DNA from: Odontesthes bonariensis
Taxonomy: Eukaryota; Chordata; Actinopteri; Atheriniformes; Atherinopsidae
Assembly: GCF_027942865.1 (NCBI RefSeq)
Contig: NC_134509.1
Location: 22,306,697 to 22,370,696, forward strand
Direction: 5' to 3'
Length of the DNA stretch: 64,000 bases
A model generated the notes under the pieces. The model saw only the letters and a list, made by a program, of their open reading frames with translations, was not told the origin of the DNA and did no database searches. The translations under genes were made by a program, and so were the position numbers. Positions 1,254-58,799 of this stretch are shown in pieces; position 1 is the stretch's first letter; each line of letters begins with the position of its first letter.

Positions 1254-4200
1254 AACCATCTACTGTAAGGATATTACAAAAAGACATATTTGGGATTTCT
1301 TTTTTGGAACTGGAATTAATAGCAAAATTAGACGCAAAAACACAACTGAAGCCTGAGATGCACTATTTTGTGATGAGTAATATTTTGAAAATCAAATTTG
1401 GCAGACAGCTGATGGCGGAGCACACGCAGATGATGCAGGTTGCTTTAAGCTCAGAGATTTTCATAAATATCTGTAAATGTTGTAGAAACAACTCTGTCTC
1501 TGATGATTTTAACACTGTACAGTTTGCAGAATGTATTCATATGTTGGATTATGTCAAACTAATTTGTTTTCTTGATTACGTGATATTTTTTAAAAATCAT
1601 TATTGTTAGATTAAACAGGTTGTTTTGTATTTGTTCATCACTGCTATCTGGTTAGTGTTGAATAGATAGAACACATTGGAAATATTAATATGACTAAACC
1701 CATTTACTTAAATAAAACAACTTGCACTACAAGTGTAATAAATGATATAAAGATTGATTTTCTGTGATAGATGCCTGCAGCAGCTGAGGCTACCAGGCCT
1801 CCTCCTCCCAAACCACAGGGTCCCTCTTACACTGTGAGAGTAATCTCTCATGCATATCATTGGTCTCTCCTGGGTTTTCTTTCCTTTGAAACATGTATCC
1901 CCATATCCCATTTTGTACCCTTGACCACAACTTTCTATTTTTATTGTGGAGGACTTGCGGCTCAACTTGGATCATCCAACATGGCTGAGTCTATGCAAAC
2001 ATACACCAATAAGCCAAAACATTAAAACTACTGATAGGTAAAGTAAGTATTACAGCTCATTTTGTTACAGTCCAGCTCTGCTGGGTAAACCTGCATGTAG
2101 GTTACATGGATTTTAACTTGTCACTTAGCAAAACATTTTTTCAGAGCAGTCATGGACCAACCTTCTCACACACACCTTCAGTACATACTTCTGCACACTT
2201 CCCACTAATAAAAGGTTTCCATTTTACAGAAATAATCTGGAATTTACTACGTGTGGAGAGCTGAAAAAGTGCCTCGTTGATTTGTGTTATCTCTCCTACA
2301 GCATCAGACACTTTATTATACCTCTTCAAAGGAGAGGAGACAATGCTGTCAAACAGTTATTTATAGTATTAACATACAAACCATCAAACCGTGCACTAAT
2401 AATGTTTATCTTCCATAAATTTAACAATTGATTCAGTCGTACCTACTGGGATTAAAGTCATTGGCCATTGGAGTGAATGGAAGACACCAGTCTTAATCTG
2501 ATAGCCTGGTTGTTTCACGTTTGTAAAAAGTAGGCTATTTTCCTTCTTATGTCACATCAAACTTTGGAGATGACGTGGTGCTTTTCATTGGATTGTCCAA
2601 TTGTATAGCCTTTGTGAAACAACAGTGTAAAATATGCAGGCAGCAAAGCATCTAAGATGACTTTAGCAGTACATCTTCAGACTCAGTGTGGCAGTATCAC
2701 ATCAACATGTGTTTCTTTGTAGGCCCGCATGGACAACTTTCATAATATCTTTCTGTGTCCTGATGAAGTTTTCCAAATGTAAGAAAAGTCTATGAACTTA
2801 ATTGGAGTGGAGTTTAACTACGTGTAAGATGAAGTTCAGAACAGTGCAAATAGAAAGATTGTTAAGTATGGTGTATACACCGACTATAAGTCGACAGAGA
2901 GCTGTGCCATCCAAGAGCATCCAAATCATTCTTCTGCTGAGTTTGACCATGAGAGCCCACTAGAGGGAGATCATCCCACACTTTTCCCAAAGCTTAATAA
3001 TGAACATCCATAAAACAAACAAACACGCTATTTAGCATGTGCTGGTGCCCCCTTTGCCCATCACATACACCACATTATTATCCCTGTTTCTAACGGTAAT
3101 GCTTTCTAAGAGCAGTAATGGAGTCCCATTCATACTGTTTGAAAGGGTGGTTTTGGTGATACAGGAAGTTATTCATTACATCAAAATTTTACATGCACTG
3201 CACTTCGAACGAAGAGGATACTCATCTACAACATTAAAGATTAAAAGAGTGTTACATAAGGTTGATTCTATCACGGCTGGTTCTCTTCTATCATTTGGCT
3301 TGGTACTTACAAAGGCAGATATGCTATTTAGACCTCTCCAGGACTGCCTTTGCCTTTGTTGGAGCATGTTTTCACACATCTTGTGTTTTGTTTTTTATTA
3401 TATGCACTCAATAGGGTCTTGTGGGTAGTTTTTTCTTGTTTCTATTCAAAAAAAGATTTCATATGTCATATTTGCTATTAAGAGGTTTACCATATGAATA
3501 AGAAAACAGACATGCATACACAGACATAAGCATGTAACAGCAGGGGCCGGATACATATAACTGTGTCGATTCATTATTAAAACAGTGTGTATGCCAGATT
3601 TCTAAAGCTGTGTGTTCATATGGGAGTCTCTTATAAATCTCAGTCATCAAGAAACAACATGCATGAGCACAAATCTGATTGTCACACATTTTTAGACATG
3701 AATGGCTGCAGACACTCCTAGTTTGTTATTCTCAGTTCAAGACGATGTTTGCATCACAACTAAACAAAGGGAGGACCGACAACTCCTATTTTATATGCTA
3801 AACACAGCCTGTAACAGTGTGAGTGGAGATGATCAGCAGGAGGACTCAGATGTACAGATGGATCATGGTATGTTTGCTGCTTTCTTAAAACTGCCCTGAG
3901 GGAAGCCTATGTGCCAGAAAATTCAAACAATCTCTAAATATTTGTTTTCTTTTTTCAAGTGTCACTAGAGAGGTTTTGAATGAGTTAAATGTGATGAAAG
4001 GCTGCAGTTATTCATAGCATCCACATTTTACTGTAAAAATGTATGAAAAAGTGTGTGTGAGAACTGACAATGAGACAAAAAATGCGACGATTCAGTGAAA
4101 ACTGTTTTTTGTTTTACGGTAAATGATGTGACCTCCTCTGCTTCCACCTCATATCAGCGTTACTTTGCTTTAAAAAACATAGGTACACATGGTTTGAAGA

Positions 4201-15575: not shown

Positions 15576-18213
15576 ATACCTATTTTCAGTGATCTATGGC
15601 TACATTTTCACGAAGATAAAATATGTATACGGTCAGAGACAAACCCAAAATAACTATTAGTGGAAGTAGTAGTAGTGCTCATGTTTAATGAATGCATGAA
15701 TGAATGACGGATAAGCAGAACCTGTACATTAATTACATTTTTCTTTTCTTTTGACAGAGCCATGTCTCAGGGAGGTGCTGTCAAAGATCGGACTTGAAGA
15801 CCAGTATGACAACAAGCTCTCAGTTAGTGATTTCCTGGAGATCACTCAAAATGACATATCAGAGAGAAAATCGGAAACAGCAAAATCCCTTCCTGAGGCT
15901 TTTTTAAAGAGTGTTTTGATGTCAAACACGAATGCTAGAAGTGTATCGAGTGTTGTGGACACAGAGAAGGAGAAGGTTATCCACCCCTTGGACCTGATAA
16001 CTGCATTGTTTCTCTGCTCAGACAGCTTTTTACAGCAGGATTTAGCTCAGAAAATGGCACTCTGCCAGTTTTCTGTGCCGCTCTTGCTGCCTAACAGTGA
16101 AACAAGAAAACTCACGATGATGCTATGGTCCATGCGGGAAATCGTTAGATCCTTCAGACCTTCACAACAAGCATTCAGAAAGACAAGCTGTGAGGAGAGA
16201 CTTGTGCTCTTTGATATTCCTCTGATATCTTTTGTTAGGCTGGGGAAGACATTCTTGTCCAAGTCTCAGACGTTAAACAAACTGCTAAGTAACGCCGAGC
16301 AGCACCATGACAGGTTTTATCATTTTGACTTGGCGCGTGGAGATGTGCCCAGAAGAATTTCAGCCGGGCTTGTTGAAATCAGCTGGTACCTCCCGTGTGG
16401 AAACAGAAACACGGACAGATTCTCGGAACCACTGGCTGTTGCTAACCTCAGAGGAGACATCAGGGCCTGTGACCAGCAGTTCTCATTTCTCTATCGGACA
16501 TCTACAGCTGTTTACGTCTTCTGTGATGAATCAGAGGTTGATTACTTCAAGACTCTTCAAGGAAAACAAGGGAAAGCAAAAGTCATTTTGATTTGCAGCA
16601 GACAAGGCAAAAGCTCTATACTCAAAATGATGACCTTGGAACCAAGCTTCAAAACAAAGAATTTGAGTCTGAATAATAGGACCGAAACAGAACTGCTTAA
16701 GGCTCTCCAGGAATCAGTCACTCAGATACTTGAGAGCAGCCCAGACAAAGTGTCGCTCGCAGATCTGGCTGAAACAGCGCGCTGCTGTGAGATCCTGATT
16801 GATGAGGATAGTGATGAATGCCAGAGTGCCGGAAAGAAAGCTAAAAACATCACTACACATGTTGCCACAACCTCAGAGTTCAAAGACCAAGAGCTGCCTT
16901 CACAGGGACACACCTGGAAAGCACTTTCATGGGTGGAGATGGAGAACTGGAGACTGCGCAAAGTTGGCAGCCAAAATACAGAGGACTACCGCAAATGGTT
17001 AAAAAAAAAAGAAAAAGAGCTCAAAAAGAAGCAGCAAAGATTTGATGCCTCAGCTGTGATGTTAAGATTCTTTCAAGGTGTGGGTACCGCATCGCAGCGC
17101 TACTTTTTCCTCAAATGGCTGGAAATGGAACTCGGTGATCTGTCCCGGTATCAGCTGTCACCTTTGCAGGATCGATACAAAGAGCTGAACCAGAAGTCTC
17201 CTAAAAACCCAGAAAAAATCGCAGCAATTGACAAGCTAATTTCTGTTTGCTCTTTACGAGTAGACCACTTTTTCCGAGAGTGCGGGCAGCTGTATGCATG
17301 TGCGAGTAGCCTGCCAGAGTTCTTCAAACAGAGAAAAACCATGGAACAGTTCCCGGCACTGTGTGCACAGATGCTGCTGGATGGTTTCCCTCTTGAGCTT
17401 GTTGATGGGGATGCAGCAAACATCCCCATGAAATGGATTAGGGATGTGCTTACTGAGCTTCATTACATCATGCAAGACAACAGTAAGCTCAAAGTCATCA
17501 CAGTCATTGGGGCTGAAAACTCAGGAAAATCGACTCTGCTCAACACCATGTTTGGGCTCAGGTTTGCCGTCAGCAAAGGAACATGCACCAGAGGGGCATT
17601 CATACAGCTAATCAGTGTCAGCAAAGATGTCAGGAGGGAGCTGGGCTGTGACTGCGTCATTGTCATTGACACAGAAGGACTGAAGCCACATCAGATGGTC
17701 GAAGATGATCACAGCCACGAACGTGACAAAGAAGTAGCGAGCCTCGCTGTGGCACTCAGCGACATCGCAATTGTCAGTGTTTCCAAGGACAGCTCCACAG
17801 AGACAGACATCTTGACGGAGGTGCTTCGTGTTTTCACAAGGCTGAAAAGTGGAGGCGAGAAGCCGCTGTGTCATTTTGTACATGTTGACAAGTCTGGGGT
17901 GTCTGCTGTTGAGAAGGAAGGAGATAAGGAGTTGGTACAACAGCTCAATGTGATAATCCAGAGGGATGAAGGGATGAAGGAGGCCAACATCACAAAGCTC
18001 TCAGATGTGATGGAGTACGATCCAAACGCATGGAACTGGTACATTCCTCCAGTTTGGAGGGGAACTCCACCAATGGCTTCATTCAGTGTTCATTACAGTG
18101 AGACTGCATGTGCTTTGAAAAAGCAACTGATTGGGGACCTTAAAAAATGCCCGGGCAGAGGTGATCTGACACGTTTTGCCACAATAGTAGAAAGTCTATG
18201 GAAGGCCCTATGA
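6677..18213 (+). CDS. Chimeric B-box / fibronectin III / URGCP-VLIG-type large GTPase (17 exons)
   Basis: Exons: 6677-6705, 6858-6941, 7045-7128, 7682-7765, 8181-8264, 8835-8918, 9357-9437, 9918-10007, 10695-10781, 10923-10988, 11114-11197, 11779-11883, 12312-12594, 12688-12724, 13376-13645, 13725-13991, 15758-18213. All junctions are GT/AG and in phase, giving 4,275 nt and 1,424 residues. Order in the protein: start MDLLKDETEK; an acidic and serine-rich region of short exons with the recurring motif RSESSIEHPLAFKGT (about residues 10-320); tandem B-box zinc fingers (about 321-415); two fibronectin III domains (about 428-606); and a URGCP/VLIG-type region whose GTPase domain starts near residue 1190. 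URGCP and the interferon-induced very large GTPases (GVIN/VLIG) are cytosolic or nuclear GTPases. The N-terminal part is typical of TRIM-like adaptors, so a role as an immune-induced effector or scaffold is a reasonable inference, not shown. A RING finger was not seen. The start is the first ATG in the open chain; further 5' exons are possible. Exon structure is inferred by eye, without transcripts. Confidence 0.85.
7278..7321 (+). pseudogene. Relic of a deleted exon inside an intron
   Basis: This intron segment matches the acceptor and first bases of the real exon at 9357-9437 (GAAGGCAGCAG after a TATTGTTT tract). The acceptor AG is changed (TTTCAGGG to TTTTATGG). Most of the exon body is missing: similarity resumes only in the downstream intron (ACATTTAATGTAA...CCCTTAGATAGAGT). 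It indicates that the ancestral repeat block contained this exon and lost it by deletion. Confidence 0.65.
8433..8476 (+). pseudogene. Second relic of the same deleted exon
   Basis: Almost identical to the relic at 7278-7321 and in the equivalent intron of the second duplicated block. It has the same lost acceptor and the same internal deletion relative to exon 9357-9437. The deletion therefore came before the block duplication. Confidence 0.65.
12312..12594 (+). CDS. Tandem B-box exon of the chimeric GTPase gene
   Basis: This single exon encodes two consecutive B-box-like zinc fingers. The first reads CDTCNQTAAVKTCLTC, then FCESDARQH and PRH. The second begins CQHLQMSPDFFC and continues TDLMKICSIC and HSGHDV. 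The C-x2-C...C-x2-C...C-x2-D...H and C-x2-H...C-x2-D...C-x2-C...H-x2-H spacings match B-box 1 and B-box 2 of TRIM proteins, and the style is that of fish finTRIM and TRIM25-like proteins. No RING precedes it. B-boxes normally bind zinc and mediate self-association. The exon enters in phase 2 (AT|A) and leaves in phase 0 at CAG|GTGAAA. Confidence 0.85.
13376..13645 (+). CDS. Fibronectin type III domain 1 exon (chimeric GTPase gene)
   Basis: A 90-codon exon, phase 1 to phase 1, encodes one complete fibronectin III domain. It has the opening PPPGNITFHSV, VVLSWGCP (strand B tryptophan), FRIKWTS, and L...GQQHLFSVATEDEAGN with the tyrosine-corner-like region. This is the usual one-exon module found in TRIM-like and VLIG-like fish proteins. 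The acceptor used is TTGGCCAG|CAGTG, chosen because it matches the phase of the second domain. Confidence 0.85.
13725..13991 (+). CDS. Fibronectin type III domain 2 exon (chimeric GTPase gene)
   Basis: An 89-codon exon with the same phase as the preceding FN3 exon. Landmarks are PPPRHL, SLSLQWTKGENM, HQFLIKVTSPGEEP and FSGLKADTEYKFSVSTVL. The LKADTEYKFSV stretch is the classic tyrosine corner of the fold. Donor CACACAG|GTGAGA. Confidence 0.87.
14324..14979. mobile_element. Palindromic TTAA element (MITE), copy 1, in a GTPase-gene intron
   Basis: TTAA flanks both ends (14320-14323 and 14980-14983). The ends are AGGACAAGACCG and its complement. Arms of about 280 bp are nearly perfect inverted repeats around a unique centre of about 100 bp (about 14604-14696). 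It has no coding capacity. A second copy is at 60620-61267. TTAA target duplications are made by piggyBac and Kolobok transposases; the Kolobok element in this window shares the start TTAAAGG. In the transcript of the GTPase gene this would form a long hairpin. Confidence 0.88.
15520..15574. repeat. (TA)n(TG)n microsatellite
   Basis: An alternating TA tract followed by about 14 TG units, in the last intron of the GTPase gene. Confidence 0.9.
15758..18213 (+). CDS. URGCP/VLIG-type GTPase exon (last exon of the chimeric gene)
   Basis: One 2,456-nt exon encodes the 3' 818 residues. It opens EPCLREVLSKIGLEDQYDNK, the conserved start of URGCP and GVIN/VLIG proteins, in which a long helical region leads to the GTPase domain. 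P-loop: GAENSGKSTLL at about 17509-17541. Later come a threonine-rich switch region (KGTCTRGAF) and the Walker-B-like DTEGL at 17668. A KxD-like base-recognition site may be HVDKSG. The exon follows TTTTGACAG and joins the FN3 exon as G|AG (Glu). The open frame appears to extend to 15751, but those bases are the acceptor. The protein ends about 235 residues after the P-loop, as in URGCP, and lacks the long C-terminal half of the very large GTPases. Such genes are often single-exon in this region and multicopy in fish. Confidence 0.93.
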
Positions 18214-48639: not shown

Positions 48640-50325
48640 AATCTTTATTGTCACTATGCAGGCATGATGAAATTTAGTTCAGGAGCTCTTGGCTTTGTAT
48701 ACACAAAAAATATAAAAATATATCAAAATAATATACAACAGAATAAAAATAGTAAAAGTTAAAGTAAAAAGTAAAAAAGTTAAAAGTTACAGTGCAATCC
48801 GGTTATTGTATGACTGTATTGTACATATTGCAGCATAAGTAAGTCAAATAAAAGTGAAGTGCAGTGCGAGTCTCTGTCTGCAGAGGTTTATAATAATCAG
48901 TCTATGGGTGGGGGTGGAGGGGTGGATGCGTGGGGGTATGGGGTGATGGATTTTACAGCTCTGGGGAAGAAGCTGTGTCTCAGTCTGTTGGTGTGTGTTT
49001 TGATACACCTGTACCTCTTTCTGGACGGAAGATGCACAAATAGTTCATGTCCTGGGTGTGTGGGGTCTGTGGCTATACGACTGGCCCTCCTTTGGACTCG
49101 GCCGTCATATATTGAGTCCAGGTGTGGGAGAGGACTCCCCACAATCCCCTGTGCTGTCTTGACCACACGGGCCAAGAAAGTCTTTGATCCAGAAGCACAG
49201 GGGGCCAGAAAGTCCCAGGCTGTGAAGTTTCAGCGTTAGCTTGTCTGGAATCACAGTATTAAAAACTGAACTGAAGTCCACAAATAACATCCTGACGTAG
49301 GTGTTGGGATGCTCCAGGTGAGTCAGGGCCGTGTGTAGTGCTAGTGAGACTGTGTCCTCTGTGGATCGGTTCTCCCTGTAGGCGAACTGATGTCTGTCCA
49401 GAGTAGCAGGAATGATGTCCTTGATGTGACTTAGGACAATCTTCTCAAAGCACTTCATGATCACCGGTGTCAGAGCAACAGGGCGGTGATCGTTGAGGCT
49501 GGTGATAGGTGATTTTTTTGGCACAGGCACAATGATGGAGGACTTGAGGCGAGCAGGAACTGAAGCGAGCTGCAGGGACAGGTTGAAAATGTCCATGAAA
49601 ACTCCAGCCAGCTGATGAGCACACAGCTTAAGAACCCGACCTGACACCTTATCTGGTCCTGCAGCTTTTCTTGTGTTGATCCCCCTCAGGGTGGAGCTCA
49701 CCTGGTGTTGCTGCAGGACAAGAGCCTGGGCTTGCTCCTCAAGTGGTGGCAGATGAACAGTCTCTCTGCTGCCAGGTGTGTCGAAGCGCGCAAAAAAACT
49801 GTTTAGGGTGTCAGGCAGGGTGGGGTCGTGGCTGATCTTCTGGTTGCTGTTCCTGTAGTCTGTTATGGTTCTGATGCCTCTCCACATTTCCCGTGGGTTG
49901 TTGTCGGCAAAGTACTCCTCAATGCGCTGTCTATACCTGCGTTTGGCCTGTTGGATGCCCTTCCTCAGTTCTGTAGGCCATCCTGTCACCTGACCTGTAG
50001 GCTGCATCCCGAGCTTTGAGCAGAGACCGCACCGTGCTGTCACACCATGGTTTCTGATTTGGAAACACCTCGACGGTCTTTGTGGGTACAACAGCATCAG
50101 TGCAGAACTGCAGATAGTCCAGGACAGATGATGTGTAGGCCTCCAGGTCTGAGCTGTCTTTTAAAACTTCCCAGTCAGTCATTTCAAAACAGTCCTGTAG
50201 TGCTGAAGAAGCCTCCTCAGTCAGTCCATACCTGAACTGTTTTGGTGGATGGTTTTGTCCTGCAGATCAGAGGTTTATATGCTTTATCAGCTCCACAGAG
50301 ATGTGATCCGACATGCCCAGGTGAG
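48640..50325 (-). pseudogene. L2-type LINE retrotransposon, 5'-truncated and internally deleted
   Basis: Read on the minus strand. The first part (about 50325-49985) holds the end of the endonuclease domain (SDHISV, then a linker [20 protein letters not shown]). A one-frame shift near 49985 leads into the reverse transcriptase: [64 protein letters not shown] and [11 protein letters not shown]. The usual FADD catalytic box is missing because the middle is deleted. The C-terminal piece follows at about 49175-48897 (DPTHPGHELFVHLPS). The 3' end carries the short repeat TTCTTGATTCTTGAT, as in teleost L2/Maui elements. It is dead; no stop-free frame spans it. Confidence 0.88.
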
Positions 50326-51990: not shown

Positions 51991-52366
51991 ATGAATAAAA
52001 ATGAATAAAAATATAAAATAAGAATAAAAAAAATGCATCTGAAATGTACAGTATTAACAGTATTAAAGAAATGACAAGGGTACGTAGCTGTTCTGCTAAT
52101 CAAATTCAAATGAACATAAGCAAGCGGCCCAGAACCAACTTCCATTTGGCCCAGCATATCGTTCTGACAGAATAAATGAATAAATATATAAAAATCAGAA
52201 GCCTTCAGACATTTCTACATTGATGGAATAAATTCCTACAGTAGTACGGACTATGAATGCAACACTGGGTTACCTAGCAACATTAAACCCATAATGCAGC
52301 ACGTTGTTGTGTTTTTGAAGTTGTACCACAGCCATTATAACTAACAGCCTTGCCACTTACTATTAA

Positions 52367-52938
52367 AGGGATAATCCGGAGTAAAATGCACTTTAGGTCA
52401 ATTTACGGGATGTTGGGAGTACATACGTTGAGTTGACATCAAAATCATTTTATTCTGATGTGTTTTGAGAATTTTGATTTGACCGTTTTCAGCCAAAAGT
52501 CGTTAGCCTGGAGGAGAGTGGGGCATATGGTATCGCCGCTACAAAACGCTATTTTTACACCTCTTCTACAGCTCCAAACAACATAACACTTACGTGGTAG
52601 TGAGTAGAGGGTCCCTAAATCCAAACAGAAGTGTCCCGAGGTCTTCATGTGGTCGGATAGAGAGTCCAGAATGAATTTAATAAAGCCAGTATCTTTCCGG
52701 AAATGCTCCTGCTGCAGCTGGCATCTTCAGCGTAAAGTCCGTATAGTAGAGCCGAGTGTGGAGTAACACGCTCTGGAAATTCACAATTTCGTTGCCGTTT
52801 TTTTTTTACAAACATAGTCCAGTATTTCTTTCGAAAGTGAAATGAAGTTGTATGCAACAGCAAAGCCTAGCTTACTAACATGTTGGAATTTTATAAAATG
52901 TCACGTGACCTTACGTCTCGCGTGACTGTTTACGGAAG
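52367..52938 (+). repeat. Left terminal inverted repeat of the Kolobok element
   Basis: The reverse complement matches 58208-58788 with only scattered differences, for example CATTTTATTCTG versus CATTTAATTCTG, and about 10 extra bases (CTAGCCTCC region) in the right copy. The match runs to TGTTTACGGAAG. It lies just upstream of the plus-strand gene and probably contains its promoter. Confidence 0.92.
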
Positions 52939-52988
52939 AGGCTCTGATTGAGCAGCAGAGAAGAGCAGGAAAGAGAAAACTTAGCAGG

Positions 52989-53712
52989 ATGGCAGAGAAT
53001 CTCTACGAAGAGGAATATTTTGGATTTGATTTTGAATTCGATGGCCTGCCATACCATTTCGAACCTGAATATACAGACGAGGAATTAAAAGAAATGGAAG
53101 AGGAGGAAAGAAGGAGAGCAACAGAAATGCAGCAGGCGGAGATTGCTGGAACCCAGCCGCGAGTTGATGGCAACTGGTGGTGTGGCTGTGGGCGATGTGC
53201 GCCCATGGCCACCGAAGAGGAGTGCCTCTGTTGTCTTGAGTGGGACCTTTTGCACCGCGGCGAAGATAGTCCTAGAGAGGATGGACAATGTTTCACGGAG
53301 GAGGAAAACTTCTCAGGGTTTCTAAACCCGATGGTGTTAGAGGCATTTTTTCATGTCCCTAAAGTGAACTGGAAAAGGCAACCCAAACCTGAGGGACCAA
53401 ATGGGCAGCTGTCTAACAAGTAAGTAGCTTACTTACGAGGTTGATTGTTTTTCTTGTTTGAATTGTGTTTGGCTGTTGTGACCACACGTACTGAGAACTT
53501 GACCCAAAACTTACCGACTCTTTTCTTATCCACTCAGTCAATACAGACTAGTGGCCTACCGCGTTGAACTTGAATGGGCATTGAAGGGCGAGCGGCTTGG
53601 ACGCGGCCAAAGACGTCCATTACCCAGCTGTGTGGTGGCGACCATGAGAACAAAGTACCCCTCTCCCACTGGGGTTTACCAAGGCTTTCAGGAGTCTGAG
53701 GAAATGTTTTAA
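52989..53712 (+). CDS. Free-standing P2X7-receptor C-terminal (ballast) domain protein carried by the transposon
   Basis: Exon 52989-53419, donor AACAA|GTAAGT; exon 53538-53712 after CACTCAG. 606 nt, 201 residues. An acidic N-terminus (FGFDFEFDG, then a glutamate-rich helix, residues 8-50) leads to a cysteine cluster GNWWCGCGRCAPM (61-73) with ECLCCLEWD (78-86). Next come NFSGFLNPMVLEAFF (107-121) and the core AYRVELEWALKG (150-161), RPLPSCVVATMR (170-181), YPSPTGVYQGF (184-194). The last blocks align with the human P2X7 tail (AYR...W...LPSC...R..FP...G.Y.GF). In P2X7 this domain is cytosolic and holds zinc and a guanine nucleotide. Here no P2X channel part precedes it: the protein has no membrane segment. 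Its role in the element is unknown; it could be a transposition accessory or captured host cargo. Confidence 0.9.
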
Positions 53713-54059
53713 AGTATGTCTTTGATGTGTTTTTCATAAAGTTTTGTAAATTATTAGGAAAATGTAAATAAACAGTATTTTTTCGCAACTTCCATCATCC
53801 TATCTGAATTACTTGCCTTTATACCATCACATACAACAATTCCACAGTCTGAGTACCAGTATGTAATGGAAAACATTTATTTATATAAATATATATGTAT
53901 TTAAAAAAAAAACACTACTGCAAATAATTATTATGAACATTCGACTACAAGAGATAAAACAATGAAAGAAAATAGAAGGAATTTTTTAATATTTACAAGG
54001 CATTTTGAACATGTGTTTATTGAAATGTGCTTTATTGACTCAAAGGGTCAAGATTTGCA

Positions 54060-57000
54060 TTATGATTTCTCAAATCTAGACTTGGTCTTTGAAACCAATT
54101 CTTTTGTGTCTGGACGTGGGACAGGGGCTATGTTTTGAAGTAATCTTCTTTGATGGGGTTTTGGTCTGGGCCAAGCTTCAATGCTCTCGCTTTCCCTGAT
54201 GTTGAGAACTCTCTCTATGAGGTCCTGACGGAATGCCTGGGATGTCTTCTCATAGATGGGTTTGGCAACCCATTGATGGCTCTGTTTGGAGTAGGCAAAG
54301 TGGTACTTGGGTTGTCCTAATACACACAAACACACACACACACATTTTAGTTGATGATCAGTTTGTCAGAATCAACTATGCAGAGATGGTGTACAAATTA
54401 TGTATATTCAGAAACAGACTTCACTCTACCTTCTGCTGTTTTTGCCTTTTCTCTGCCCACATTGGCATTGTGGTCCATGATGGCCAGTTGGGCTCTGGCC
54501 CTCATTCCATCATACTTGAAATGTAGCCTCTTCTGTGCGTATTTGAGGATCACAGAGTGGTAGACCTCCAGAGATCCTGTATAAGGATTATATTACAACA
54601 TCTTTTTAAAAACAAGTTACACAGAAATGTGTATAGAGAAATGATATTTCAAACTACTGATGACAAATATGACTATAAAAAACAGAACAGAGGAAGTTGC
54701 ATAGCTAGGAATACTACTTGTTCTTGCACCTCACAATTATGTATGTTTAGACATAGTATTGCTTACAAACATCTGTGTGTATGCATGACATACCTGTGTG
54801 CTTGAAAAGAGCCATGTGGGTGATGTCACGGAGGAGATTCTTATCCTCCACAAGAGCTGTCAGCGCACGGAAAGACGGTGAATCAGTCTTCAACCATCTC
54901 TTCCTCCTTTGTTCCTCTGCTGTCAACGGTGGATGGAAACAACTGCATGCCTTTTCACCATCCTCCCACCGATGTACACCACGAATGTGGTGAAGCAGTG
55001 AGGTCCAGCGTCGGACACATTCCTAACAAATACATAATTGACTGAGATGTGCTCCTAGCACCTTTTGACAGCTTCTACTACTGTGGTCTCTGTGTCTTGT
55101 TCTTCAGTACTGTGATGCATATCATAACATTGCATATTGCCAGATGTAAAAAGAATAAAGACTGCAGCCATTCATTATTACCTCTTTGTCACCGCCAGAC
55201 GAACTGCACGACCAGTACAGATGACGGCTAATGGACTTCAACCATGGCTGCAGCTCCTTGTTGTCCTTTTTATTGGCTGCACTTACCAGCCTCTTCATGA
55301 AACCTATGTACAACATCAAAAAAGCATTTCATATTTCAAAAGGGCAAAATAGAGATTGTCTGTATGCGTCTTCATCTTGAATTTGTGGCTACTTACTTTT
55401 ATTTACGTGCCACGGATCAAATTCATGGCGAATTTGGCTGTACTCCTCTTTCATCAACTTCCGTATGGAAGGAGCCCTGTCTGTTGTGAGTACACCGACA
55501 TCCACCCCAGGGAAAGTAGGTAATCAAGGCCTCTTTTAAATCCCAGGGACTCCATGGCAACTGAGCTTGTCGTTTCAGAAACCTAATGGATAAAGAAATT
55601 ACTTATTAGACTCAACATGTGATCCCCAAGCAATCAATTGCTTTTGTCTTGAGAACTTTCACTACATTGAATAATCATATGCGTATTTACCTGTACAAGT
55701 TCAAAATGAATTATTTCTTTGGTGCCGTCATCTTGGAACGAGTAAGTCGAATACTTACAACAGAAACCTGTTGAAACAACATATATGAGCAAAAATGTAC
55801 AAAGCAGTGTATCTGTCCAAATTCAAAAGACTATCATGCTTACCCGGACTGTCACACCTTGCATCTCCACATATTTCCACCTTGTTTCCAGATGCAGACT
55901 GTTGACGGAGGCGCTCCATAACTTTCATTTCTTGTTCTTTGTATGCACTGTTTACCACTGGTATGAAGTATTTCAACTGCATGGCAAAGAACTGGCTCGA
56001 ACTGGGGATTTGCAGATTCATGAGATTTGCCCATTCTTTTATCTCTGTATATGTGCTGCCAGTGAACAGAATTGAAGCACAGACAAGAAGATTGTTCCGT
56101 GGCATCCCCCTTGTTTCTGGACATGATGTCCACTCCCCTGTATGTCCATTCAGGCATGTCCAGCATATTTTGATTAGACTGCCTTGTGTAACAACCCTCT
56201 TGTCCTCAACTGCAGTTGCACATGTATGGCAAGTCTGGAAAAGCTCCATGAGTTTGAACTCGTCAACAAGCCATTTCTTCCCTGCATATCCACTTCCTGT
56301 TCCACTGCCAGAACCGGAACCAGAACCTGTTCCAGGGCTGGAGGGAGATGTCTCGCTCAGTGGCACAAAGCTTTCATCTGCTGGGTCCTCCAAGTCAATC
56401 TCCCCAAAACTTATGCTCATGTCATGTGCAGCCTCTTCTTGAGCATGTTCCTGTTGTATCTGCATCGTTAGAGGTTTTAGAAATTAAACTAAACATCTGG
56501 CATTGACCTCTAATTATAATGTGAACAATAAAAGTGAAAGTTTCATTCAACTCACTGTAGATGGAAGTGCACTAGCTGCGCCGTAAAGAGTCAAATCTGA
56601 CTTAGATGAAGTACCACTCTCCTTGTCATAAAGAAACAAAACACATTGTTAATTTTGTAATGTGTTGGAGTCACACTGGTGACACAGCAAAATGACAGCA
56701 ATGGCGTTACAATGCTTACCTCTGACAATCTCCATGTTGGGGGGCGTGCTAGGTATGTCCCGGAGGATGATGGCTTTGTGCGTGGCCTGACTACTGGCTG
56801 TGCTGGACTTGACAGAGACAGACTAACACCAGACAGCAGACCACAACGCCCAGATGCAGAGTGTCCCTCGCCATCTCCAAGCTGAGTTTTGTTCGGGGTG
56901 GACTGTGGTACAGCAGCTAATTCTGATGCTTCCAAACATATGGGGGCATCAGAACCACTTACCTATAATGAATAAAATAAATTGGGTCAAAACACAAATA

Positions 57001-58196
57001 GTTGAACGTCAGTTTACAAAAAAGATTGTTTTTAAAAAACAGACAGAAATTACTCAAATTATCATACGACCAGAGAAGCAGGTTATGAAACAGGTTGTGA
57101 AAGCCTAAAAATGTAATATCAATTCATATGCTCAATCTAAGGGGGAGCATACTGGTTTTTGGAGTCATTGAAAGCATCTGTACTAGTTGTATACTTTACT
57201 GGGTAGGAACAGACATGGACCATATCACAACCCTCACCCTCCCCCTCTAGTTGTATACGTTACTGGGTAGGAACAGACATGGACCATATCACAACCCTCC
57301 CCCTCCCCCTCTAGTTGTATACTTTACTGGGTAGGAACAGACATGGACCATATCACAACCCTCACCCTCCCCCTCTAGTTGTATACTTTACTGGGTAGGA
57401 ACAGACATGGACCATATCACAACCCTCACCCTCCCCCTCTAGTTGTATACGTTACTGGGTAGGAACAGACATGGGCCATATCACAACCCTCCCCCCTCCC
57501 CCTACCCCCTTATTGAGCTGCATTCACAGAGCCCAACTCGCCCATTATTTATTGCTCCCCCAAATAGGCTACCCTTACTCCATATATTGGCAAACATACA
57601 AAATGACTTCATTGATTCATGACTTTATCACACATTATAACAGACAAATACACGAATTCTAAGACAAAAAAAAAAAATGCAAAGTTACAGGTAACTCAAA
57701 GTAGTTTGGCCAACGTTATCTCAGTCCCTCCCCCACCATGTTTACTTTAGGTATCGTGTATTGGGCTACAACTCAACGGACAGGCTAATAAAACAAACAT
57801 TTAATTCAAATACATTACCTCTAGAACGCCAACATCTTGAGCGGCTTTTGGAATTGCGTTTTTCCTCAAGCGCATTCGTTGTTTTTGGCCACCATGTCGT
57901 CTTTCCTGGGTCAAGTCATCCGGGTCAAAATGTGCACTGCAAACTCGTAAGTCTCTCTGCTTCAATGTGTCGACCGGCGTGTTCATATCAATTTTTAATA
58001 TCAACAGCCATTGTTTCAAAAGTTGTGAGTCGTGAAAAGGCAGCCTGTGGAACCTCACAGGATTATAACATTTCATCCGCGTCCCGCAGCCAGGATAGGA
58101 ACAAACACGCACCATAACTCCAAAAGTTTGCTCCGCTGTTTGTTCACCAATCTGCTCACACACCTCTCCTTCTTCTGTGATGGTCACTCCAGTCAC
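54060..58196 (-). pseudogene. Kolobok-type THAP transposase, ten exons, frameshifted in exon 6
   Basis: Exons in coding order: 57819-58196, 56720-56962, 56556-56621, 55844-56459, 55691-55767, 55397-55582, 55182-55303, 54794-55022, 54430-54576, 54060-54316. Every junction is GT/AG and the phases agree, except that exon 55397-55582 is 186 nt where 184 is required. Inside it the frame must shift twice, once in the A run near 55539 (GGATTTAAAAGAGG) and once in the C run near 55517 (TTTCCCTGG), so two single-base insertions are inferred. Exon 1 has a THAP zinc finger: C32, C37, C86, H89, with FHRLPF at 49-54. Later: a C-x2-C...C-x2-C knuckle (residues about 300-340), GDARCDSPG (about 427-435, first catalytic Asp), TTDR (second Asp, after the shifts) and GSLEVYHS (Glu). 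Length would be about 772 residues. It would cut and paste the element at TTAA sites in the nucleus. Confidence 0.9.
57184..57503. repeat. 64-bp minisatellite, five copies, exact period
   Basis: TAGTTGTATAC starts at 57184, 57248, 57312, 57376 and 57440, always 64 apart. Units are almost identical, differing at TACTTT/TACGTT and CCTCACC/CCTCCCC. It lies in the first intron of the transposase. Confidence 0.93.
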
Positions 58197-58207
58197 GCAA
58201 AAGACGT

Positions 58208-58788
58208 CTTCCGTAAACAGGAGGCTAGGTCACGCGAGACGTAAGGTCACGTGACATTTTATAAAATTCCAACCTGTTCGTAAGCTAGGCTTTGCTGTTG
58301 CATACAACTTCATTTCACTTTCGAAAGAAATACTGGACTATGTTTGTAAAAAAAAAACGGCAACGAAATTGTGAATTTCCAGAGCGTGTTACTCCACACT
58401 CGGCTCTACTATACGGACTTTACGCTGAAGATGCCAGCTGCAGCAGGAGCATTTCCGGAAAGATACTGGCTTTATTAAATTCATTCTGGACTCTCTATCC
58501 GACCACATGAAGACCTCGGGACACTTCTGTTTGGATTTAGGGACCCTCTACTCACTACCACGTAAGTGTTATGTTGTTTGGAGCTGTAGAAGAGGTGTAA
58601 AAATAGCGTTTTGTAGCGGCGATACCATATGCCCCACTCTCCTCCAGGCTAACGACTTTTGGCTGAAAACGGTCAAATCAAAATTCTCAAAACACATCAG
58701 AATTAAATGATTTTGATGTCAACTCAACGTATGTACTCCCAACATCCCGTAAATTGACCTAAAGTGCATTTTACTCCGGATTATCCCT
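58208..58788 (-). repeat. Right terminal inverted repeat of the Kolobok element
   Basis: Inverse partner of 52367-52938. Its inner edge is only 12 bp from the transposase start codon, so the promoter for the transposase must lie in it. The open frames 58292-58510 and 58507-58710 are identical to inverse frames in the left repeat and are not genes. Confidence 0.92.
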
Positions 58789-58799
58789 TTAAGCCCCAT

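Follow-up and report, generated by a model that had tools for sequence, protein, structure and literature searches.

The window analysed here is a 64,000-nucleotide stretch of the Odontesthes bonariensis genome, on contig C4 of the assembly that was searched throughout (945 Mb, 187 contigs). Positions 52367-58788 of the window hold a Kolobok DNA transposon of 6,422 bp, in which two convergent genes lie within near-identical terminal repeats: a transposase gene on the minus strand and, on the plus strand, a gene referred to here as KolX, whose product resembles the cytosolic tail (ballast domain) of the receptor P2X7. A first-pass annotation had proposed a transposon at this position, with TTAA flanks, inverted repeats of about 575 bp, a THAP/DDE transposase and a two-exon gene on the opposite strand. 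All of these features were recovered, and the element is confirmed as real and well preserved.

The element is bounded by TTAA target-site duplications at 52363-52366 on the left and at 58789-58792 on the right, so that its termini read TTAA-AGGGATAATCCGG ... CCGGATTATCCCT-TTAA. The left terminal inverted repeat (52367-52939, plus strand), which starts with AGGGATAATCCGG, is 573 bp long, and the right one (58207-58788, minus strand) is 582 bp long. The two differ by 3 mismatches and one 9-bp gap, a likeness that makes the insertion probably young. The ends of the element, AG...CT, fit the 5'-RR..YY-3' rule that distinguishes Kolobok from piggyBac (Kojima & Bao 2022, PMC9587614). A 64-bp tandem array of 5 copies (57183-57503) lies in transposase intron 1. 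It has fewer copies in another copy of the element (L029) than in the window and is thus a length-variable array carried by the transposon.

The transposase gene (54060-58115, minus strand) was modelled as 10 exons with GT/AG sites and 747 positions, namely 58115-57819, 56962-56720, 56621-56556, 56459-55844, 55767-55691, 55582-55397, 55303-55182, 55022-54794, 54576-54430, and 54316-54060. An AATAAA at 54031-54036 on the same strand is its likely poly(A) signal, and a second one starts at 54021. The window copy carries one frameshift, in exon 6, which the first-pass annotation missed; the same exon is open in one other fetched copy of the element, so copies without the frameshift exist. Pfam detected a THAP domain on the open reading frame (ORF) at 57801-58196 (E 2.6e-15), and on the modelled transposase both THAP (E 2.5e-14) and a Mutator-like transposase domain (E 7.2e-7, score 28.9 bits, cut-off 26.5). 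When the window transposase was aligned with 17 others chosen among 118 protein-search matches, residues D401, D405, D469, D490, H493, and E617 were invariant in 18 of 18 sequences; the first aspartate is D401 or possibly D405, and the DxxH motif is D490-P-W-H493. The zinc-finger residues H549, H554, C565, and H567, located between DxxH and E617, are kept in 17 of the 18. The element therefore shares with the Kolobok superfamily the TTAA target, the RR..YY ends, the DDD/E residues with C/DxxH, the THAP domain, and the H2CH finger, and the DDE, C/DxxH, THAP, and H2CH finger are features named for Kolobok in the literature (PMC9587614, PMC6004289). Pfam found no piggyBac family in the transposase, only THAP and the Mutator-like family being above cut-off, and no nuclease family (His-Me being that of KolobokP) in the two element products. 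Long terminal direct repeats, a KolobokP trait, were absent from a self-comparison, which gave only the inverted ends and the 64-bp array, and an Rfam search of the window returned 0 matches.

The KolX gene consists of two exons on the plus strand, 52989-53419 and 53538-53712, separated by a predicted GT..AG intron (53420-53537) that falls within the ballast domain, and it encodes a product of 201 amino acids. The first exon holds the start codon, the FEPEYT motif, and C65, C67, C70, C81, C82, and C101; the second holds R147, LPSC175, R181, GxYxGF, and the stop codon (53710-53712), and is followed by a likely poly(A) signal, AATAAA, at 53767-53772. The C-terminal half had been said to match the P2X7 tail, and searching the product against Pfam bore this out, with a match to P2RX7_C (PF20478) at E 3.1e-13 (50.5 bits, cut-off 23.5); phmmer also matched the product to the rat P2X7 chain 6u9v (E 2.8e-4). 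P2RX7_C was the sole Pfam family found in the 201 residues, with no P2X channel domain. KolX retains all seven zinc cysteines that the P2X7 ballast has, and its predicted fold is P2X7-like. The window protein differs from the P2X7 ballast (PDB 6u9v and others) in having no channel, in its extra segments after the CC motif, in the intron within the domain, and in the GDP-site residues H547, R574, and K583, which are L, V, and S in KolX. The role of the zinc and guanine-nucleotide sites of P2X7 itself is not established (PMC8410900). An N-terminal FEPEYT-like motif is present in 23 of 23 aligned relatives.

Copies, families, and relatives of the element

A DNA search with the KolX gene, in which 40 of 45 candidates were scored, retrieved five full-length copies, window included, at 95-100% identity. 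Long transposase matches numbered six, five of which adjoin the five KolX copies on the opposite strand; no KolX match accompanies the sixth (contig C1, ~10.08 Mb). The copy on contig C3 has the same repeats and a TTAA at both ends in flanking DNA different from that of the window. Both ends of L029 have TTAA. Derivatives of ~1.2 kb that lack both genes were also seen genome-wide, with two facing repeats whose arms are 95-99% identical to the window repeat, and these internal-deletion copies look far more numerous than the full-length ones. As to whether the gene is always present, a question raised in the first-pass annotation, KolX adjoins the transposase in all five full-length gene copies, but it is missing from the deletion copies and from one transposase match. 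Since KolX lies beside the transposase in full copies and is absent from deletion copies, the gene belongs to the full-length element, and the recurrence of the ballast gene in other copies means that its likeness to the P2X7 tail is not due to chance. The gene is therefore neither a single host insertion nor without a profile match to the P2X7 tail.

At least 150 P2RX7_C matches were found in the genome (150 of 596 candidates scored), and 20 of the best places were fetched at 10 kb each (loci L009 to L028). One of these, L009, is this fish's own P2X7. Transposase matches at E<=1e-4 were obtained in 15 of the 19 remaining loci, mainly on the strand opposite KolX, and the first-aspartate motif, searched on that opposite strand only, in 11 of the 19. 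These loci do not count as independent, since L013-L015, L017-L020, and L023 belong to a single family, in which L014 shares ~6.7 kb at 96.5-98.1% identity with five members and shorter parts with two. Among six copies whose ends were read, TTAA is present on the left in five and on the right in all six. Loci L025 and L026 have the termini TTAA-AGCTATAATG...CATTATRGCT-TTAA. On this evidence, KolX is carried by at least three Kolobok families in this genome. In all 7 KolX pairs taken from diverged families, replacement changes are far less frequent than silent ones (pN 0.13-0.27, pS 0.73-0.93), with silent sites near saturation; the only pair with a defined ratio gave 0.057.

One fetched locus, L010 (C17:5401000-5410999, ~2998-3504), has a ballast ORF, but its 10 kb gave no transposase match and resemble none of the other fetched loci at the DNA level; this ORF is a candidate for a domesticated, Nanor-like host gene.

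In other organisms, a protein search with KolX retrieved 40 relatives, and a profile that included the rat segment retrieved 176, of which 120 were listed (best 8,000 candidates scored). KolX and the transposase are adjacent by locus tags in Mugilogobius chulae (WMY93_014378/014377) and, again by locus tags only because the longest contigs listed for the two proteins are not the same, in Cirrhinus mrigala (M9458_050717/050716). In Merluccius polli, Gadus chalcogrammus, and Xyrauchen texanus, both genes lie on the same contig, as matched by eye from its length, which is a statement of shared contig and not of adjacency. Ten pattern-matching stretches were found in viral contigs, none encoding a relative. 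A KolX-like protein filed as Vibrio parahaemolyticus (P0230, on a 1.8-kb contig) is probably fish DNA in a bacterial assembly. Ballast proteins have been reported from sponges to frogs, and Kol0 elements from vertebrates, annelids, cnidarians, and sponges (PMC7016195, PMC9587614).

Two KolX types and the tail of P2X7

Kojima & Bao 2022 gave KolX its name and recognised the ballast fold in this protein of Kol0 elements; they derived P2X7 from a P2X4-like gene fused to KolX and considered zebrafish Nanor a probable domesticated KolX (PMC9587614). The central idea, KolX as the source of the P2X7 tail, is thus already in print, and the window element adds a member to a known group. With published Kol0 elements that carry KolX, it shares the TTAA target, 5'-RR..YY-3' ends, a DDD/E transposase with DxxH and zinc finger, and a second protein with P2X7-ballast similarity and seven conserved cysteines, and no difference in kind was found, as judged from the published descriptions (PMC9587614). 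The family of the window element is marked by its ~575-bp repeats, by a KolX gene interrupted by an intron, and by the tandem array. Nanor shares with KolX the form of a stand-alone ballast protein and differs in being a host gene (PMC9587614, PMC7016195); the two are likened here by description, no Nanor sequence having been identified among the matches. What the present analysis adds is a second type of KolX in the same genome, found in other TTAA-flanked Kolobok elements.

In the window type, an intron interrupts the ballast, and additional residues are found behind the CC motif and around the conserved W. In contrast, the second type (L010-L028) has neither the ballast intron nor the extra residues, and one open frame spans the domain; the cysteine motifs are present in all 19 of these loci. 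A ballast in one open frame is also what the second type shares with the last exon of P2X7. At the fish's own P2X7 locus, the tail exon matched mouse P2X7 9e3q at E 5.2e-36, an upstream stretch matched rat P2X7 residues 324-347 (E 0.0039, the best matches all being P2X7), another stretch matched the first 49 positions of P2RX7_C, and no transposase match was obtained. RHxAYR, which the P2X7 of this fish and of mammals contains, was seen in 12 of the 19 second-type loci and in none of 17 window-type relatives; IPSCCVW, found in this fish's P2X7, occurs in 16 of the 19, and PSCCVW in 0 of the 17. A tick sequence is mixed, with RHAAF as in the second type and PSCVV as in the window type. A pyrimidine-rich phase-0 acceptor lies 48-49 residues before WCxC in five second-type loci (L010, L021, L022, L026, and L028), which resemble the P2X7 last exon in this, and at the threshold used none was found there in the other 14. 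In this fish's P2X7, an acceptor lies 41 residues before WCxC, and other acceptors are possible. Mean identities to the fish's own P2X7 tail are close, at 33.9% for the second type (9 rows), 31.1% for the window type (18 rows), and 33% for the tick row.

We compared element-borne and P2X7 domains in a 31-row tree that omits 10 near-identical loci (L012, L014, L015, L016, L018, L019, L020, L022, L023, and L026) and includes 17 KolX relatives picked by hand from protein-search lists. P2X7 and the second type were placed opposite the window type and the tick sequence with support of 91/74. Without the tick row, the window type was split off at 100/100, a split that alone cannot place P2X7. The grouping of P2X7 with the second type is qualified by approximately unbiased (AU) tests, in which P2X7 with the window type gave p 0.137 and P2X7 with the tick row p 0.34; as neither alternative is rejected, the donor type stays hypothetical. 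An earlier tree without the second-type loci, in which P2X7 joined the tick sequence across long branches, was set aside.

The shared motifs and the single-frame ballast hint at the second type as the donor type, and a P2X4-like gene could have trapped a single second-type exon from an element inserted downstream. That the donor of the P2X7 tail was this second type, still present in Kolobok elements of the same genome, and not the window type, is a proposal that we make tentatively and at somewhat less than even odds. In the published text of Kojima & Bao, supplements apart, as far as it was available, we found no statement of which KolX type gave the P2X7 exon (PMC9587614).

Proposed role of KolX and competing explanations

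Taken as a whole, we consider it likely (roughly 0.87) that the element is a Kol0-type Kolobok whose transposase is accompanied by KolX as an accessory acting in trans, and that P2X7 acquired its tail by capture of a KolX domain, not the other way round. The window copy would be a nearly intact and probably young element with a transposase frameshifted once. Both genes read inwards from the repeats, and since the near-identical repeats stop 49 and 91 bp short of the start codons, they probably supply the transposase and KolX with the same promoter. Judging from its family, the transposase would use the THAP domain to bind the repeats, and insertion would take place at TTAA, the flanks observed here. 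KolX is retained as an element gene and most likely acts in trans with the transposase, for instance as an aid in the assembly or control of the transposition complex. A link between the role of KolX and the TTAA target, at which both groups concerned insert, would be worth testing. The first-pass annotation had suggested, as one of two routes, that an element of this sort was the source of the P2X7 tail; this is the published conclusion, with which our findings agree, although our own tree does not prove the direction.

Several points weigh against this explanation. Besides the direction from KolX to P2X7 not being proven by the tree, gene-less two-repeat derivatives are common (29 among 40 scored of 1,021 candidates; in these, a full repeat faces a second arm ~140 bp off, the same 471-nt arm in 28, as counted by eye), which indicates that the element can do without KolX in cis. 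A premature stop interrupts KolX in one of two further copies, and recent KolX pairs (n=4) are without clear constraint, with dN/dS of 0.20, 0.67, and 1.26 on few changes and no silent change in the fourth. Four of the 19 loci (L010, L020, L021, and L027) have no transposase match within 10 kb, and two more are weak, the best transposase match being upstream of KolX in L016 and ~6 kb off in L022. The splice models of both genes are predictions from sequence. Rump et al. 2020 reported linkage of ballast genes with two conserved markers in animals ranging from sponges to sea urchin, and no large-family expansion (PMC7016195), which fits host genes better than transposons. The non-expansion is not borne out in this genome, and the words "transpos" and "mobile" are absent from the text of that paper (PMC7016195).

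Unlike the helper role proposed above, KolX may instead regulate or suppress the element, or shield it against host silencing. We regard this as unlikely, if a serious contender: gene-less derivatives have spread, so that KolX need only act in trans, and protein constraint on KolX fits any trans-acting role, while no result here separates a regulator from a helper.

Transposons do capture exons, and the other route suggested in the first-pass annotation was that the element had taken up a host exon, be it from P2X7 or from another host ballast gene of a fish genome. Exon capture being generally known, and the ballast domain being common to the element and a host gene, such an origin has a basis, yet we consider it very improbable. 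The window KolX has its own start codon, the FEPEYT-like motif, and a ballast intron, and its type averages only the 31.1% identity to the fish's own P2X7 tail given above. Host-exon capture is unsupported because KolX recurs in several Kolobok families of this genome and other fish, too, have it together with the transposase. Moreover, Kol0 is known from cnidarians and sponges (PMC9587614), i.e., animals branching before P2X7, whereas typical P2X7 has been reported from bony fish and tetrapods only (PMC7016195). A chance neighbourhood, in which the transposon landed next to or around an unrelated host gene, as a single copy alone could be read, was rejected, being refuted by the transposase in the same place and orientation in 5 of 5 full-length gene copies and by the C3 copy, in which a different flank surrounds the same repeats and the TTAA.

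The window element offers an independent, well-preserved case of a transposon carrying the P2X7-tail domain, and connects a transposon protein with a part of an immune receptor that is poorly understood. As the genome of a living fish holds abundant relatives of the presumed donor, both the way in which capture took place and what the fold originally did are testable.

Other features of the window

Elsewhere in the window, an ORF of 820 amino acids (15751-18213, plus strand) encodes what we take to resemble a very large interferon-induced GTPase, and one of 330 amino acids (49105-50097, minus strand) presumably resembles the reverse transcriptase of a long interspersed nuclear element (LINE). 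A tandem array with a 32-bp unit and ~10 copies occupies positions 229-551.
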